Source: Thermoclostridium stercorarium subsp. stercorarium DSM 8532 (GTDB lineage Bacteria; Bacillota; Clostridia; DSM-8532). From it: DNA of 64,000 bases. Position 1 is the first letter of the stretch; each line of letters opens with the position of its first letter. Location: the NCBI RefSeq assembly GCF_000331995.1, contig NC_020134.1:2764627-2828626 (forward strand), given 5' to 3'. Positions 12,694 to 18,872 of this stretch are shown piece by piece. Below the pieces are notes generated by a model, which saw nothing but the letters and a program-made list of their open reading frames with translations, was not told where the DNA came from and searched no databases. The position numbers and the translations under genes were made by a program.

Positions 12694-13140
12694 TTATCGC
12701 GGCGGTTCACTTCCCCCGGTCAATATATAATATCTCACAGGAAAGGTGTCATTTTTCATTATTACCTGTTTTCCCATGTTGTTTTTCATATTGATCAGAA
12801 CCGGCGCTTTAAGGTTCACCGTCATAAACCGTATGTCTTCAGGAATTGTTACAATGGCCAGCGTCAGCACATTTTCGGGATCGTTTATCTCAATTTCGGC
12901 TATTTCCTCATCGTCCACGTCCACATAATAATCTTCCTTAATATAAAACGGATCGGTTACAACAAACGCCAGATCGGGTTTATCAACACACTGGAGCCAG
13001 AAAAAAGGGCTGTCGGCCTCCTGCCTTCCCAGCAGAACAAACTTCCTGACATTCTCAAACCCTGGTATTCCAGACGGAAAATACAGGATTTCTTTCTCAT
13101 CCACTTCAATAACGCCAAAATGCTTTGTGTTAAGCTGCAT
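12694..13140 (-). CDS. fliW: flagellar assembly factor FliW
   Basis: Protein antagonist of CsrA; it is released when flagellin is exported and then frees or binds CsrA. 148 aa, with TKHFGVIEVDEKEILYFPSG and GIPGFENVRKFVLL, then WLQCVDKPDLAFVVTDPF, all family hallmarks. The start is ATG 13140 behind AATGGAGGAG; earlier in-frame codons lie outside the homologous region. Confidence 0.93.
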   Translation of the reverse strand: MQLNTKHFGVIEVDEKEILYFPSGIPGFENVRKFVLLGRQEADSPFFWLQCVDKPDLAFVVTDPFYIKEDYYVDVDDEEIAEIEINDPENVLTLAIVTIPEDIRFMTVNLKAPVLINMKNNMGKQVIMKNDTFPVRYYILTGGSEPPR

Positions 13141-13194
13141 AGCTACTCCTCCATTTAAAAGAACCGGGGACACATAACTCCTTCACCATGCAAA

Positions 13195-14106
13195 TCAGAG
13201 CAGGAAATCCACCAGGGTGGGCTGAATTACCTTTGCGCCTACTGCCAGCGCAGCGTTGTATACATTCATTTCGTTTGTCCAATGCATAATTGCCTCGGCC
13301 AAATCCACGTCTTCGTTTTTGCTCATCAGTTTCGTGAAGTTGATATAATCGTCGTCCAGCCTGTTGGATGTAAGCTCAAGCCTGTTCGTCCTTGCGCCCA
13401 CGGCGGAAAGAACCCTTAAAATGTTTTCTATTTCAGTGTCGATATCGGCAATTACATCCCCTACCGCTTTTTCATTGCCTGACTCAAGCGCGGCAATAAG
13501 ATTGTCAAAAGTGCCGATCAGACGGCTTTTTGTTCCTTCCGCAACTCCCTTGCTTCCGCCATGGAACAGATCGCATCCTACAACATTGACGTCTATGTCA
13601 TCCCCTATGCCTATCTCATAAAACATCTTCTCATCATCCGAAACCTCAATCAGGAAATTGCCCTGTTCATCCAGCAGGGCTTTATCGGTTTTAAATCCCG
13701 AGAAAATATATCTTCCTGAATATGTGGTGTTTGCCAGCTGGATCATTTGCGCTTTCAGCTGTTCAATCTCGGCCTTGATCTTGGCCATGTCCTCCGGCGT
13801 TTTGGTTCCGTTGGCAGCGTCAACGGTCAGTTCCCTGGCCCGCTGCATTACGTTTTCTATTTGCATAATCGTCGTCTCGGTAATCTCCATCCATGATTCC
13901 GCGTCATCGACATTTCTTTTGTACTGCTCAATCTCAGCAACGTCGGTGCGGAGTTTCAACGCCCTGGACGCCACAATGGGATCATCGGAAGGAAGGCTTA
14001 TTTTCTTCTTCGATGCCACCTGATTCTGATATTTACTGACTCTGTTCAGACTATTGCTTAAATTCGACAGCATGTTATTAATGAGCATGTTATTTGTAAT
14101 ACGCAT
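13195..14106 (-). CDS. flgL: flagellar hook-associated protein 3
   Basis: Forms the second hook-filament junction ring. 303 aa; N-terminus MRITNNMLINNMLSNLSNSL and the C-terminal helix ending NVYNAALAVGAKVIQPTLVD match FlgL/HAP3. A SGRYIFSGFKTD motif marks the central domain. ATG follows GAAGGGAG. It is 42 nt downstream of flgK. Confidence 0.93.
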   Translation of the reverse strand: MRITNNMLINNMLSNLSNSLNRVSKYQNQVASKKKISLPSDDPIVASRALKLRTDVAEIEQYKRNVDDAESWMEITETTIMQIENVMQRARELTVDAANGTKTPEDMAKIKAEIEQLKAQMIQLANTTYSGRYIFSGFKTDKALLDEQGNFLIEVSDDEKMFYEIGIGDDIDVNVVGCDLFHGGSKGVAEGTKSRLIGTFDNLIAALESGNEKAVGDVIADIDTEIENILRVLSAVGARTNRLELTSNRLDDDYINFTKLMSKNEDVDLAEAIMHWTNEMNVYNAALAVGAKVIQPTLVDFLL

Positions 14107-14148: not shown

Positions 14149-15753
14149 TTAAACTCCAAGCCTGTTTACAAGAACATCCAGTATTTCGTCATATGTCTGA
14201 ATCATTTTCGCCGCTGCCTTATAAGCGTGCTGGTACCGAACCAGATTGCTCATTTCTTCATTAACCGAAACGCCCGATACCGACTCCCTTCTGTTGTCTA
14301 TCTGCTGGGTTATGGCAGTCTGGTTGTTTAAATAATGCATTGCCAGCTGACCGTCAACGCCAACACATGATATTACGGTTTTTATGTAATCCTCCGGGCT
14401 TCCTTCCCTGAACATGTACGGATTATGCCGCATGTCTATCAGCGATCTCAGAACCTCGAAGTTGCCAACCTCACCGGGCGCTGACGATATGCATATGTTG
14501 TTTGTCGGGTCCTCATATATTTCACTGCTGATCGAAAAATTCTTTGCGGTGATATGCCTGTACATCTCTTCAATGTCCCCGCCGCCCAGTTTGGCGAAAT
14601 CCTCGCTGCTCATCGGCTTGCCGTTCTCGTCAAACATCGTGAAAAATCTGATACCGGCGGCAGAATCCCCTTCCTTTGAATTCAGTTTGTATCCGTCAAC
14701 ATGGCCCATTACGTCTTCGACAACGCCGTCGCCGTTAATATCTATAAGCCCTTCATTGAATGTAAGCGCAAATGTCCGTACAAATTCATTCAACTTTCTC
14801 ATATAATAAGGAATTCCTCTGAAACCACTGCTTCCGTTCAGGCCTTCGTTACCGTCCCGAACATCCAGATATCCCTTAAGTTCTCCCGATTTTACCACCA
14901 GCCTGTTCCCGTCAGCCCAGGCCACCTCATACAGGTCGGGTATATCTTCTTCGTTGAGTTTGTTTTCCCGCTGTATTGTGGTAAGGTACGAAACTTTGTT
15001 GTGGTCAACAAGGGCCTTTCCGCTTATTGTTATCACAAACCGCATGTCATCCTGCCCGTTCGGGAGTTTCCCGTAGCTTACTTCATAGGCCTCAATGTTT
15101 ATCAGTCTGGCCAGCTTGTCCACAAGATACCCTCTCTGATCCCTCAGGTCATTTGCGACATTTCCGGACACTTCATAACTGTAAATCTGCTGATTCAGTT
15201 TCGCAATCTGATCGGCCAGAGAGTTTATTTCCTGTACCTTCGCGTAAATGATTTCGTTTATGTCATTCTGCATGTACTCAAAATGCGCCGCTACGCTGTT
15301 GAAATATTTTGTAAGCATAACGGCTTTTTCCTTCAGCGCCGCACGGGTTGACGGGTTTGACGGGTCGGTGGAAAGCCGCTGCAGACTGTCGTAAAATTCA
15401 TTAAGGACGGTATTGAAACCACTTTCAGACGGTTCATTGTATATTACCTGCAGTTCCTCAAGTAGGGCCTGCTTTACATCCCATTCGCCGAGGTACTGGG
15501 CTTCTGTGCGGTATTTGACATCCAGATACTCGTCCCGCACCCGTTTAACTCCGATAACTTCAGAACCCGTTCCAAGCATTCCGGTACCGTTGGCCATAAG
15601 GATTGGCCTTGCCGCCCTCTGTTCCAGTACCTGACGTGAAAATCCGGGAGTGGTTATATTGCCTATGTTGTGGTTTACCGTTGCAAGCCCGCGCTGCGCG
15701 CTGTAAAGGCCTCTTGTGGCTATGTCTATTCCGAAAAAGCTTGAACCGCTCAT
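14149..15753 (-). CDS. flgK: flagellar hook-associated protein 1 (second FlgK copy, standard form)
   Basis: Hook-filament junction protein. The 534-aa product has the FlgK N-terminus (FFGIDIATRGLYSAQRGLAT, NITTPGFSRQ) and C-terminus (SGVSVNEEMSNLVRYQHAYK, AAAKMIQTYDEILDVLVNRL). The length is typical and it lacks the extra domain found in the gene just upstream, from which it is clearly diverged. Start ATG after AAAAGGGG. Having two adjacent flgK genes raises the question of whether one is an alternative junction protein. Confidence 0.92.
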   Translation of the reverse strand: MSGSSFFGIDIATRGLYSAQRGLATVNHNIGNITTPGFSRQVLEQRAARPILMANGTGMLGTGSEVIGVKRVRDEYLDVKYRTEAQYLGEWDVKQALLEELQVIYNEPSESGFNTVLNEFYDSLQRLSTDPSNPSTRAALKEKAVMLTKYFNSVAAHFEYMQNDINEIIYAKVQEINSLADQIAKLNQQIYSYEVSGNVANDLRDQRGYLVDKLARLINIEAYEVSYGKLPNGQDDMRFVITISGKALVDHNKVSYLTTIQRENKLNEEDIPDLYEVAWADGNRLVVKSGELKGYLDVRDGNEGLNGSSGFRGIPYYMRKLNEFVRTFALTFNEGLIDINGDGVVEDVMGHVDGYKLNSKEGDSAAGIRFFTMFDENGKPMSSEDFAKLGGGDIEEMYRHITAKNFSISSEIYEDPTNNICISSAPGEVGNFEVLRSLIDMRHNPYMFREGSPEDYIKTVISCVGVDGQLAMHYLNNQTAITQQIDNRRESVSGVSVNEEMSNLVRYQHAYKAAAKMIQTYDEILDVLVNRLGV

Positions 15754-15784: not shown

Positions 15785-17788
15785 TTACCTTCCCACAATT
15801 CCGGTCCTGTAAATTATCGTTTCGAGCATTTCGTTTATAACGTTCACTATTTTCGTCGCGGAGTTGTATGCATATTTATATTTGATCAGGTTGCCCATTT
15901 CTTCGTCCAGCGAAACGCCCATCAGGGACTGCCGTTCGTTTTCGGCGGCATTTACAAGCACCTGCTGGCTTTCCACATACTGTCTTGATTCGTTTCCGAT
16001 ATTCCCCACAGTGAGAATTATCTGCTGGTAGTAGGAATCGACGCTCAAAGTCTGGTTGTAGCTTGCCATAATGCTTTCATTGCGAAGTTTTGCTATTTTC
16101 ATCGCTATAACGTTGTCGCCGTTAGCGTCGGTGGAAGACGCAACAATGCTGTTCAAATCCAGCAGGGAATCGGACAACTTAATATTTCCCATTTCAAGCG
16201 GCCTGGACGGATCTATTGTTTCAAACAACGCTCCGCCCGGTTTTCCGTCCAGCGTATAACCTGACATATGGAGGCGGTTTACTTCCCGTAGTACGATATT
16301 CACCATCGCATTCAGCATTTTCTTCACATTCGAGATTATATTCATCGACTCTTCCACGGTGGCGATGCGCTTGTTCACGTCGGCGGCGGTATCGGTTCCC
16401 ACTTTGGACATAAGCGAGGAATAATCGTCAGCAGTTATATTATAAACCGATCCGCCGGTGGCTTTGACAACGCTGTTCCAGCCCGCATCCGTACCTATTA
16501 CCGAAACCTGAATATTATTCTTCGTCAGCGTGCTTATATAATCGTCCAGATTACCGGTGGTGCTCAGGGCTTCGGCTGAGAATACAACCAGATATCTGTT
16601 GGCTCCTTCGGCAAACGGCCCTGTTCCGGCCACGTTTGAAACCACAGTCCCAAAATCCAGCGCTCCACCGCCGGAAATATTTAAGCTTTTAACAGCGCTA
16701 ATAAAATCATCTGTATTATTCCCAAAATCAATATTGCTGACAGTTCCGGCGTTAAACGTAACAAGCCTGAGGTTATATTCCAGCCCGTTACTCTTAAGTT
16801 CACTGACATATTTTTCTATGCTGTTTTGCAGATCAGCCAGGTATCCGGACGAGGCACTGGACAAATCCACAGCAAAGGTTACATCGCAGGTGGTGTTCGG
16901 AGTGCCGTTGTCATAGCTCCCCTTGGCGCCGCTGACCATTCCCCGCGCCTCCATCAGGCCTTTTATTCTGCCCATGCCCGGATCTATTTCAACCCCAAGA
17001 TCTTCAATCACAGGCACAACAAAATGCGACAACGGCGCATTCTGCACGGCAACCAAATTGGTGTGGCTTGTCTTGCTTACAAGGTAATAGCCTCCCACCA
17101 GAATATCCATATATCCGTCGGGATGTTCGTAAACTTCAACCTTAATAAGATCTGAAAGCTGATCAACCAGTAAATTGCGCTGGTCATAGTAGTCATTGGG
17201 GTTATTGTTGGCCGCAATTGCCTTGGCAATTAAAACATTGAGTTCGGCAATCTGCTTTGTTATGCTGTTCACCTTCTCAATGCCCTTTATAATTTCGTTG
17301 TTTATGTCTTCCTGAAGCTTGTCTATCTGATAACCAATGTGGTTAAGATGATAAACCAGCGCTTCGGCCCTCTGCCTTACCAGTGCTCTTACCGTTAAAC
17401 TTTCGGGAGACTTTGCCAGTTCCTGCCATGCATTCCAGAATTCATTCAGGATGCTTTGCAGGCCATCGGTCATCGGCTCGCCCAGAATGGATTCAAGTTC
17501 ACTTATGCCGTTGTACCGCGCTTCCCAGTATCCGAGGGCATTTGCCTCCCTGCGGTAAATCCCGTCAAGGAAGGAATTGCGTATCTGGCGTATCTCCTGA
17601 ACCTTCGAGCCCAGTTCAACCCAGTTGTTTACAATGTACCGGCTGTTGGCCGTCGCAAGAATGGCCTGCTGCCTTGTGTATCCCTTTGTGTTCAGGTTGG
17701 ATATATTATGACCTGTTACCTCAAGAGCTTTCTGGTTATTGTGCATTCCCGTTACGGCAGTAGTTAATCCTGAGAAACCGGTTGACAC
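15785..17788 (-). CDS. FlgK-like hook-associated protein with inserted von Willebrand A-like domain
   Basis: FlgK family protein of 667 aa, about 130 longer than its neighbour. Residues 1-290 (TTAVTGMHNNQKALEVTGHN, LQSILNEFWNAWQELAKSPE) and 480-667 (GVSLDEEMGNLIKYKYAYNS) are ordinary FlgK ends that pack in the hook-filament junction. Residues about 300-463 (nt about 16400-16891) form a vWA-like Rossmann domain: CDVTFAVDLSSAS opening strand, LEYNLRLVTFN second strand, YLVVFSAEAL, and IQVSVIGTDAG, with alternating helices. The metal site is degenerate (D308-x-S310-x-A312). The start is GTG 17788 after AGAGGTGA. The domain would be exposed on the flagellum surface; an adhesive role is only inferred. 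Confidence 0.82.
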   Translation of the reverse strand: MSTGFSGLTTAVTGMHNNQKALEVTGHNISNLNTKGYTRQQAILATANSRYIVNNWVELGSKVQEIRQIRNSFLDGIYRREANALGYWEARYNGISELESILGEPMTDGLQSILNEFWNAWQELAKSPESLTVRALVRQRAEALVYHLNHIGYQIDKLQEDINNEIIKGIEKVNSITKQIAELNVLIAKAIAANNNPNDYYDQRNLLVDQLSDLIKVEVYEHPDGYMDILVGGYYLVSKTSHTNLVAVQNAPLSHFVVPVIEDLGVEIDPGMGRIKGLMEARGMVSGAKGSYDNGTPNTTCDVTFAVDLSSASSGYLADLQNSIEKYVSELKSNGLEYNLRLVTFNAGTVSNIDFGNNTDDFISAVKSLNISGGGALDFGTVVSNVAGTGPFAEGANRYLVVFSAEALSTTGNLDDYISTLTKNNIQVSVIGTDAGWNSVVKATGGSVYNITADDYSSLMSKVGTDTAADVNKRIATVEESMNIISNVKKMLNAMVNIVLREVNRLHMSGYTLDGKPGGALFETIDPSRPLEMGNIKLSDSLLDLNSIVASSTDANGDNVIAMKIAKLRNESIMASYNQTLSVDSYYQQIILTVGNIGNESRQYVESQQVLVNAAENERQSLMGVSLDEEMGNLIKYKYAYNSATKIVNVINEMLETIIYRTGIVGR

Positions 17789-17900: not shown

Positions 17901-18404
17901 TCAGTACTTAATATCCAGCACGCTTCCGCCGTTTATCTGCTTTTCAGCGCCCTTTCTGCCATACTGCGTGGTTTGCGGAGCTGGCTGCATGTAAAGGTTC
18001 AATGAAAAATTTATGTACTCTATCGCATTCTCCAGCAGTTTCTGGTTAGTATCATTCCGCGCCTTTAATTTTTCAATTGTTTCCCTCAGACTGTCCCTTA
18101 CGCTCAAAAGCTTCTTTGCCTTATCCTCGGGCAATATTTCAGCCAAGCAGGATGCAGTGACTTCCGCGGGCTTTTTCCCAAGTTTTCTTGCAATCTGCAC
18201 CACAATCTGTTCCCTTGCGCTGTTGAGCTTTTCCAGTTCCTTAACAATCTTCTGTTCCCTTATTGTGGTCTCCTCAAGAGCCTGCACATCGCCTTTTACA
18301 ATAATATCGGTTTTTTTCTCAGCTTCTTCCAGAATCTGAGCGTAAAATTTATTTTCCAGTTCCAGAACCCTTATCAGGTTATCGGTCCAAACCGCGTCTA
18401 TCAT
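17901..18404 (-). CDS. flgN: flagellar export chaperone FlgN
   Basis: Cytoplasmic chaperone for FlgK and FlgL before export. 167 aa, mostly helical, with the FlgN-family opening (LIRVLELENKFYAQILEEAE) and repeated Lys/Glu heptads up to residue 120, then a low-complexity tail. It lies immediately upstream of the two flgK genes. ATG follows GGAGGAAATGA. Confidence 0.82.
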   Translation of the reverse strand: MIDAVWTDNLIRVLELENKFYAQILEEAEKKTDIIVKGDVQALEETTIREQKIVKELEKLNSAREQIVVQIARKLGKKPAEVTASCLAEILPEDKAKKLLSVRDSLRETIEKLKARNDTNQKLLENAIEYINFSLNLYMQPAPQTTQYGRKGAEKQINGGSVLDIKY

Positions 18405-18584: not shown

Positions 18585-18872
18585 CTAAATTTTTTCCTTC
18601 AACAGAGTTTGGATCAGTTTTTCGGCAATATCCTCGGCACTTACGTAGTATTCCCCTCTTTCGATTTTCCGGGAAATTTCCTTCACTTTGTCCTCTCTGA
18701 TATCGGGGATGTTCCGCAGAGCCCTCATTGCAACCTGGTACTCTTTCGCAAGCCCTGAAATGCTGAACTCGTCCTTTTTTGAAGCAACAACGTCTTTTTG
18801 CGTGAACTTTCCTGTCGGGCCCGGCTTGTTGTAGACACCGTAAATTTTGGGATTATCTCCCCAAATTTTCAT
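18585..18872 (-). CDS. flgM: anti-sigma-28 factor FlgM
   Basis: Holds the flagellar sigma factor inactive until exported through the finished hook. 95 aa; the disordered N-terminus carries the short MKIWGDNPKIYGVY opening and the C-terminal half has the sigma-binding helices (RALRNIPDIREDKVKEISRK, IERGEYYVSAEDIAEKLI). Own terminator and probable sigma-D promoter, so it is likely to be induced with the filament genes. Confidence 0.9.
   Translation of the reverse strand: MKIWGDNPKIYGVYNKPGPTGKFTQKDVVASKKDEFSISGLAKEYQVAMRALRNIPDIREDKVKEISRKIERGEYYVSAEDIAEKLIQTLLKEKI

Follow-up and report, generated by a model that had tools for sequence, protein, structure and literature searches.

The upstream member of a tandem FlgK pair in Thermoclostridium stercorarium and other Clostridia carries a von Willebrand A domain

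The window, that is, the whole stretch of 64,000 nucleotides of the Thermoclostridium stercorarium genome that was analyzed, contains a late flagellar cluster in which flgM, a probable flgN, an flgL-like gene, fliW, flagellin, flaG and fliD surround two flgK-family genes, here called flgK1 and flgK2. The features of the locus are as follows (residue numbers refer to FlgK1; vWA, von Willebrand A).

12694..13173, minus strand: fliW, assigned with NCBIfam
13195..14106, minus strand: flgL-like gene with Flagellin_N and Flagellin_C, in the position after flgK
14149..15753, minus strand: flgK2, an ordinary FlgK of 534 aa without a vWA domain, directly downstream of flgK1
15785..17788, minus strand: flgK1, a FlgK of 667 aa with a vWA insert and a GTG start
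15785..16348, minus strand: C-terminal half of FlgK1, residues 481-667 (D1 helices, a 47-aa segment at the D2 site, D0 helix), from Pfam and the model
16349..16939, minus strand: inserted segment, residues 284-480, missing in L048 and the other FlgK1 proteins that lack an insert
16361..16897, minus strand: vWA fold, residues 298-476, from PF00092, AlphaFold and structure comparison
16853..16867, minus strand: remnant MIDAS motif D308-L-S310-S-A312, from the sequence and the alignment of relatives
16940..17788, minus strand: N-terminal half of FlgK1, residues 1-283 (D0 helix, D1 helices, D1b sheet), from Pfam, the model and the alignment of relatives
17901..18404, minus strand: probable flgN (FlgK/FlgL export chaperone), assigned by position only, with no match in an NCBIfam search
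18585..18872, minus strand: flgM, assigned with NCBIfam

The tandem arrangement of two flgK-family genes was correctly recognized in the original prediction: both are on the minus strand, and both products exceed the cut-off of the NCBIfam FlgK equivalog TIGR02492 (170.75 bits), with 301.7 bits for FlgK1 and 312.5 bits for FlgK2. A ribosome-binding-site-like sequence, AGAGGTGA, lies 5' of the GTG start of flgK1, and the neighborhood of this gene, a late flagellar cluster that also contains flgM, flgL and fliW, is that expected of a flgK. The ends of the protein, proposed to be intact, indeed contain the Pfam domains Flg_bb_rod (residues 8-38), FlgK_D1 (96-288) and Flg_bbr_C (624-659). The AlphaFold model of full-length FlgK1 has a mean pLDDT of 77.6, with low confidence (pLDDT < 50) only at the D0 ends, and its D1 and D1b parts match Salmonella FlgK (2d4y) with a VIA-align Z of 32.8 and an rmsd of 1.9 over 340 residues. 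The D0/D1 body, D1b and the C-terminal half are shared with the FlgK (HAP1) proteins of Salmonella, Burkholderia and Campylobacter (2d4y, 4ut1, 5xbj, 9go6), with Z values of 28-33 for the body. In a Foldseek search with the FlgK1 model, solved FlgKs rank first, followed by vWA proteins. FlgK is a protein of the junction between flagellar hook and filament. FlgK1 is a genuine FlgK, and its expected NCBI annotation is simply FlgK. Profiles of hook and rod proteins (FlgE, FlgG) also match the N-terminus of FlgK1 (window positions 17605-17767), but not that of FlgK2 (14149-15753), a hint that FlgK1 may be the hook-side subunit.

Insert-free relatives of FlgK1, such as L048, align to residues 1-283 and 484-667, so that the break lies at 283|484 and the insert comprises about 200 aa (residues 284-483). 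The insert had been placed at about residues 300-463, with a length of about 164 aa; this location holds, whereas the extent was somewhat underestimated, as the fold alone spans residues 298-476. The insert starts with the conserved entry motif V-x-G-x-K-G-S-x-x-N-G-x-P (residues 285-297), which in one family group (f24; L047, L088, L089) is preceded by about 25-30 extra residues. The order in solved FlgKs is D1b sheet, D1 helix and then D2 (and then D3 in Burkholderia), and the D2 folds vary by species (PMC5691160). The insert of FlgK1 is located between D1b and the next D1 helix (residues 484-508 in the model), ahead of the D2/D3 site, and therefore it does not represent the usual D2/D3 domain, a candidate that is also ruled out by the alpha/beta fold described below. 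The expectation that the insert is something other than a common FlgK D3 domain is thus borne out by both position and fold. The D2 site itself encompasses only 47-52 residues in FlgK1 proteins, irrespective of the presence of the vWA domain (47 aa in the window protein), compared with 120-160 residues in solved FlgKs (PMC5691160).

FlgK1 residues 298-476, approximately, are a von Willebrand A domain. Pfam detected PF00092 (VWA) at residues 302-441 with 33.2 bits and an E-value of 7.4e-8 (gathering score, 23.8 bits), and no VWA was found in FlgK2 in this search. In the full-length model, residues 300-476 form strands and helices in the vWA order, and the segment 298-476 yielded VIA-align Z values of 18-20.6 to TFIIH p44, integrin I domains, vWF A1 and BatB. 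Predicted alone, the insert adopts a Rossmann-like fold with a central sheet of all six strands and alternating helices (pLDDT 85.7, pTM 0.84), and its Z values to TFIIH p44, integrin I domains, vWF A1 and BatB are 17-19.5. A profile of the insert found integrin I domains as well, weakly (E-values of 2e-4 to 5e-3). A chance or weak vWA likeness is ruled out by the PF00092 score, the Foldseek result and the Z values. The vWA identity, which had been suggested from the sequence, is therefore supported by the profile search, the predicted fold and the structure comparison alike.

The closest structural neighbors of the insert are p44/Ssl1, and Rpn10 is also among the matches. These proteins are scaffold subunits. 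The neighbors, and the use of the vWA fold as a protein-protein module in TFIIH p44 and Rpn10, lend some weight to an alternative that we consider possible but doubtful, namely, that the domain is a structural brace that packs on FlgE, on the second FlgK or on an adjacent FlgK1, stiffens or buffers the junction and replaces the missing D2. The small D2 site (47-52 residues compared with 120-160) fits this explanation, and so does the insertion site, which borders D1b, the part of FlgK that contacts the hook protein FlgE in a docking model of the Campylobacter proteins (PMC5691160). In addition, the junction has been proposed to act as a mechanical buffer (PMC12221982). However, several relatives have an equally short D2 site and no vWA domain, and because these proteins do without it, the domain is not required as a D2 replacement.

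The opening strand indeed ends in D308-L-S310-S-A312, as originally noted, and the suspicion that the metal site is imperfect applies well beyond the window protein. Window FlgK1 has D308, S310, A312 and A405 and no matching Thr, and thus lacks a complete MIDAS, which consists of D-x-S-x-S and of T and D from three loops. Of 37 relatives, 36 retain D308 and 33 have S310 (or T). Position 312, by contrast, is Ser in only five (Ser or Thr in 19), Asp405 of the third loop occurs in six, and the second loop contains no conserved Ser or Thr; D-x-S-x-[S/T] together with D405 is retained in 3/37. Because the site is degenerate throughout the subfamily, the metal-independence part of the earlier guess at metal-independent binding gains strength, and a metal-binding adhesin is unsupported. 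We read the vWA domain of FlgK1 as metal-independent, judging from these residues, and as probably descended from a metal-binding ancestor that later lost the site. The near-invariant D308 and S310 could nevertheless form a residual cation or ligand site.

The vWA fold is best known from adhesive and force-sensing proteins. A surface or shear sensor, in which the vWA domain would deform under load on the rotating flagellum and signal to the cell, comparable to the pilus-tip protein PilY1, appears highly improbable to us, even though torque passes through the junction and vWA domains sense force in both vWF and PilY1 (PMC9210963, PMC8806160). Force sensing by PilY1 requires cysteines of its vWA domain, and its MIDAS is intact (PMC8806160), whereas in FlgK-vWA the MIDAS is lost and conserved cysteines are absent, with no cysteine in the domain of most members of the subfamily. 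FlgK1 thus has neither of the two PilY1-like features, and a disulfide-switched sensor is unsupported. Moreover, no inward signaling route from a rotating external ring is known, and no partner gene travels with vWA-FlgK.

A FlgK with the insert was found in 34 of the 391 sampled genomes of the class Clostridia, comprising the majority of genomes in the same family, a single genome of the same order and members of the families f24, f26, f54, f64, f76, f80 and f87. Altogether, vWA-FlgK is spread over no fewer than nine family-level groups of Clostridia; a sample of 398 genomes of the phylum, within which the spread was assessed, yielded no further case. An intact gene with conserved counterparts in relatives rules out a single-genome oddity or an assembly artifact. 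vWA-FlgK is an old, conserved and apparently undescribed FlgK subfamily. One genome of the same genus (G002) has no FlgK1 match and is possibly non-flagellated or incompletely assembled.

The vWA domain occurs only in the upstream copy of the tandem FlgK pair, and a plain FlgK lies downstream of vWA-FlgK at all 37 loci for which the downstream flank exceeds 600 bp. In the FlgK survey, two FlgKs were found in 25 of 25 vWA genomes compared with 32 of 86 FlgK genomes without vWA, counts that stem from related and hence not independent genomes. When the insert is removed from the alignment, the tree groups FlgK2 proteins with FlgKs from genomes that have a single copy (SH-aLRT 99), and the FlgK1 proteins lie outside this group; therefore, FlgK2 appears to be the plain orthologue and FlgK1 a divergent duplicate, in a tree rooted on few distant sequences. 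Two other genomes deserve mention. A FlgK1/FlgK2 pair from a genome labelled as the same family (L053, genome G029) groups with f22 and lacks vWA, reflecting either assembly contamination or horizontal transfer, and a 5.5-Mb genome (G204) with a contamination estimate of 11% has two separate FlgK1/FlgK2 tandem pairs (L145, L146), both without vWA.

The insert-free FlgK1 proteins of f54 and L048 are nested among vWA-bearing FlgK1 proteins, and in the tree of the FlgK body one protein with the domain (L067) and one without it (L132) are sisters with full support. A single origin without loss, with all vWA-FlgK1 proteins in one clade, is rejected by the AU test (p 1.2e-6). Since the vWA domains are homologous and have the N-G-x-P entry motif in common, one gain followed by several losses is the simplest reading. 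The domain was lost without loss of the FlgK gene; the losses in f54 left short loops that differ among its members, and FlgK1 proteins of f22 have a similar V-x-G-x-K-G-S-x-E-N-G loop and no domain, either an old acceptor loop or a scar. No sign of recent domain shuffling between lineages was observed, as the vWA tree recovers the groups f1, f24 and f26, with deep branches unresolved. As for the source of the domain, the same genome has five other PF00092 matches, ranging from weak to strong, and three of these proteins (L090, L091, L094) were compared with the FlgK-vWA profile and did not match it. In the sample of 398 genomes, the only other strong matches to this profile, and the best ones outside FlgK, with E-values of 1e-18 to 1e-22, are large secreted vWA proteins from another class of the phylum (L097-L100), which are a possible source of the FlgK domain. 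Three of them (L097, L098, L099) are secreted-looking proteins of 1650-1832 aa that combine many D-x-D-x-D-G-type repeats with vWA. The metal site of L097-L100 appears complete by eye (D-x-T-x-S, T, T-D), and these proteins are multi-domain and non-flagellar.

The vWA domain evolves faster than its carrier, with a mean identity to the window protein of 36% for the insert vs 56% for the carrier. This divergence speaks against the brace as well, as a tight interface should be conserved. Fast change and repeated loss would likewise be expected of a nearly neutral or antigenic decoration. In this case the duplicated FlgK1 would tolerate an outer domain that has no dedicated ligand, varies in response to phages or grazers and comes and goes. 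The differing short loops in the insert-free members of one family group point in the same direction. Yet the domain is retained, with its fold intact, in nine family-level groups, N-G-x-P is conserved, and D308, W437 and G446 are near-invariant, so that we regard decoration as quite unlikely. Our preferred reading, held with moderate confidence, is that the vWA domain is an exposed accessory domain that would bind a surface, a polymer or a neighboring appendage. Because it diverges faster than the carrier and has been lost repeatedly, it would be dispensable for assembly. Sequence does not distinguish adhesion from structural bracing or from sensing, among which the adhesin and the surface sensor were the possible roles originally suggested.

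An accessory binding domain of this kind could have arisen and could function as follows. After an old tandem duplication, flgK2 would have kept the plain form, so that the divergent flgK1 would have been free to carry an outer domain. The flgK1 product would leave the cell through the flagellar type III system and be assembled via its intact D0/D1 helices, and the metal-independent vWA domain would have been inserted into its outer side, between D1b, the sheet with which known FlgKs contact the hook, and the following D1 helix. In the Salmonella junction, 11 FlgK subunits lie above the hook and 11 FlgL subunits below the filament, and the junction is the proposed buffer of mechanical stress (PMC12221982). 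FlgK1 contains everything required to join a layer of this type. If the FlgK1 layer has 11 subunits as in Salmonella, the vWA domains would form a collar on the hook-proximal side of the junction, facing outward near the hook, as homologues suggest. The presence of two FlgKs would allow either a third layer in the junction or a mixed one. The specific arrangement of an extra layer, in the order FlgK1, FlgK2 and FlgL, with eleven metal-independent vWA domains as an outward adhesive or load-bearing collar, is in our view unlikely.

FlgK1 differs from known systems in several respects. The known D2/D3 domains of FlgK (HAP1) are beta domains that follow the D1 helix (PMC5691160), whereas the vWA domain of FlgK1 precedes this helix, the D2 site is almost empty, and the gene is duplicated in tandem. 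With integrin I, vWF A1, BatB, TFIIH p44 and Rpn10, the vWA domain of FlgK1 has the fold and strand order in common (Z 17-20), but it is only 11-19% identical to them, its metal site is degenerate, and its host is a flagellar axial subunit that would pass through the type III channel. PilY1 and other pilus vWA adhesins likewise carry vWA on a bacterial surface appendage, as proposed for FlgK1, but PilY1 is a pilus protein with an intact MIDAS and cysteines (PMC8806160), whereas FlgK1 is flagellar and lacks both. Searches of the open-access literature found no description of a FlgK with a vWA domain.

The known species differences in the outer domains of FlgK involve only beta domains at a single site. 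The vWA domain occupies a second site and is restricted to one FlgK copy, which makes it a test case for how axial proteins gain outer functions, and the tandem FlgK pair is a test case for whether two kinds of FlgK can make up one junction. The flagellar junction joins the sites at which bacteria display vWA domains, which so far have been described mainly for pili and secreted proteins.
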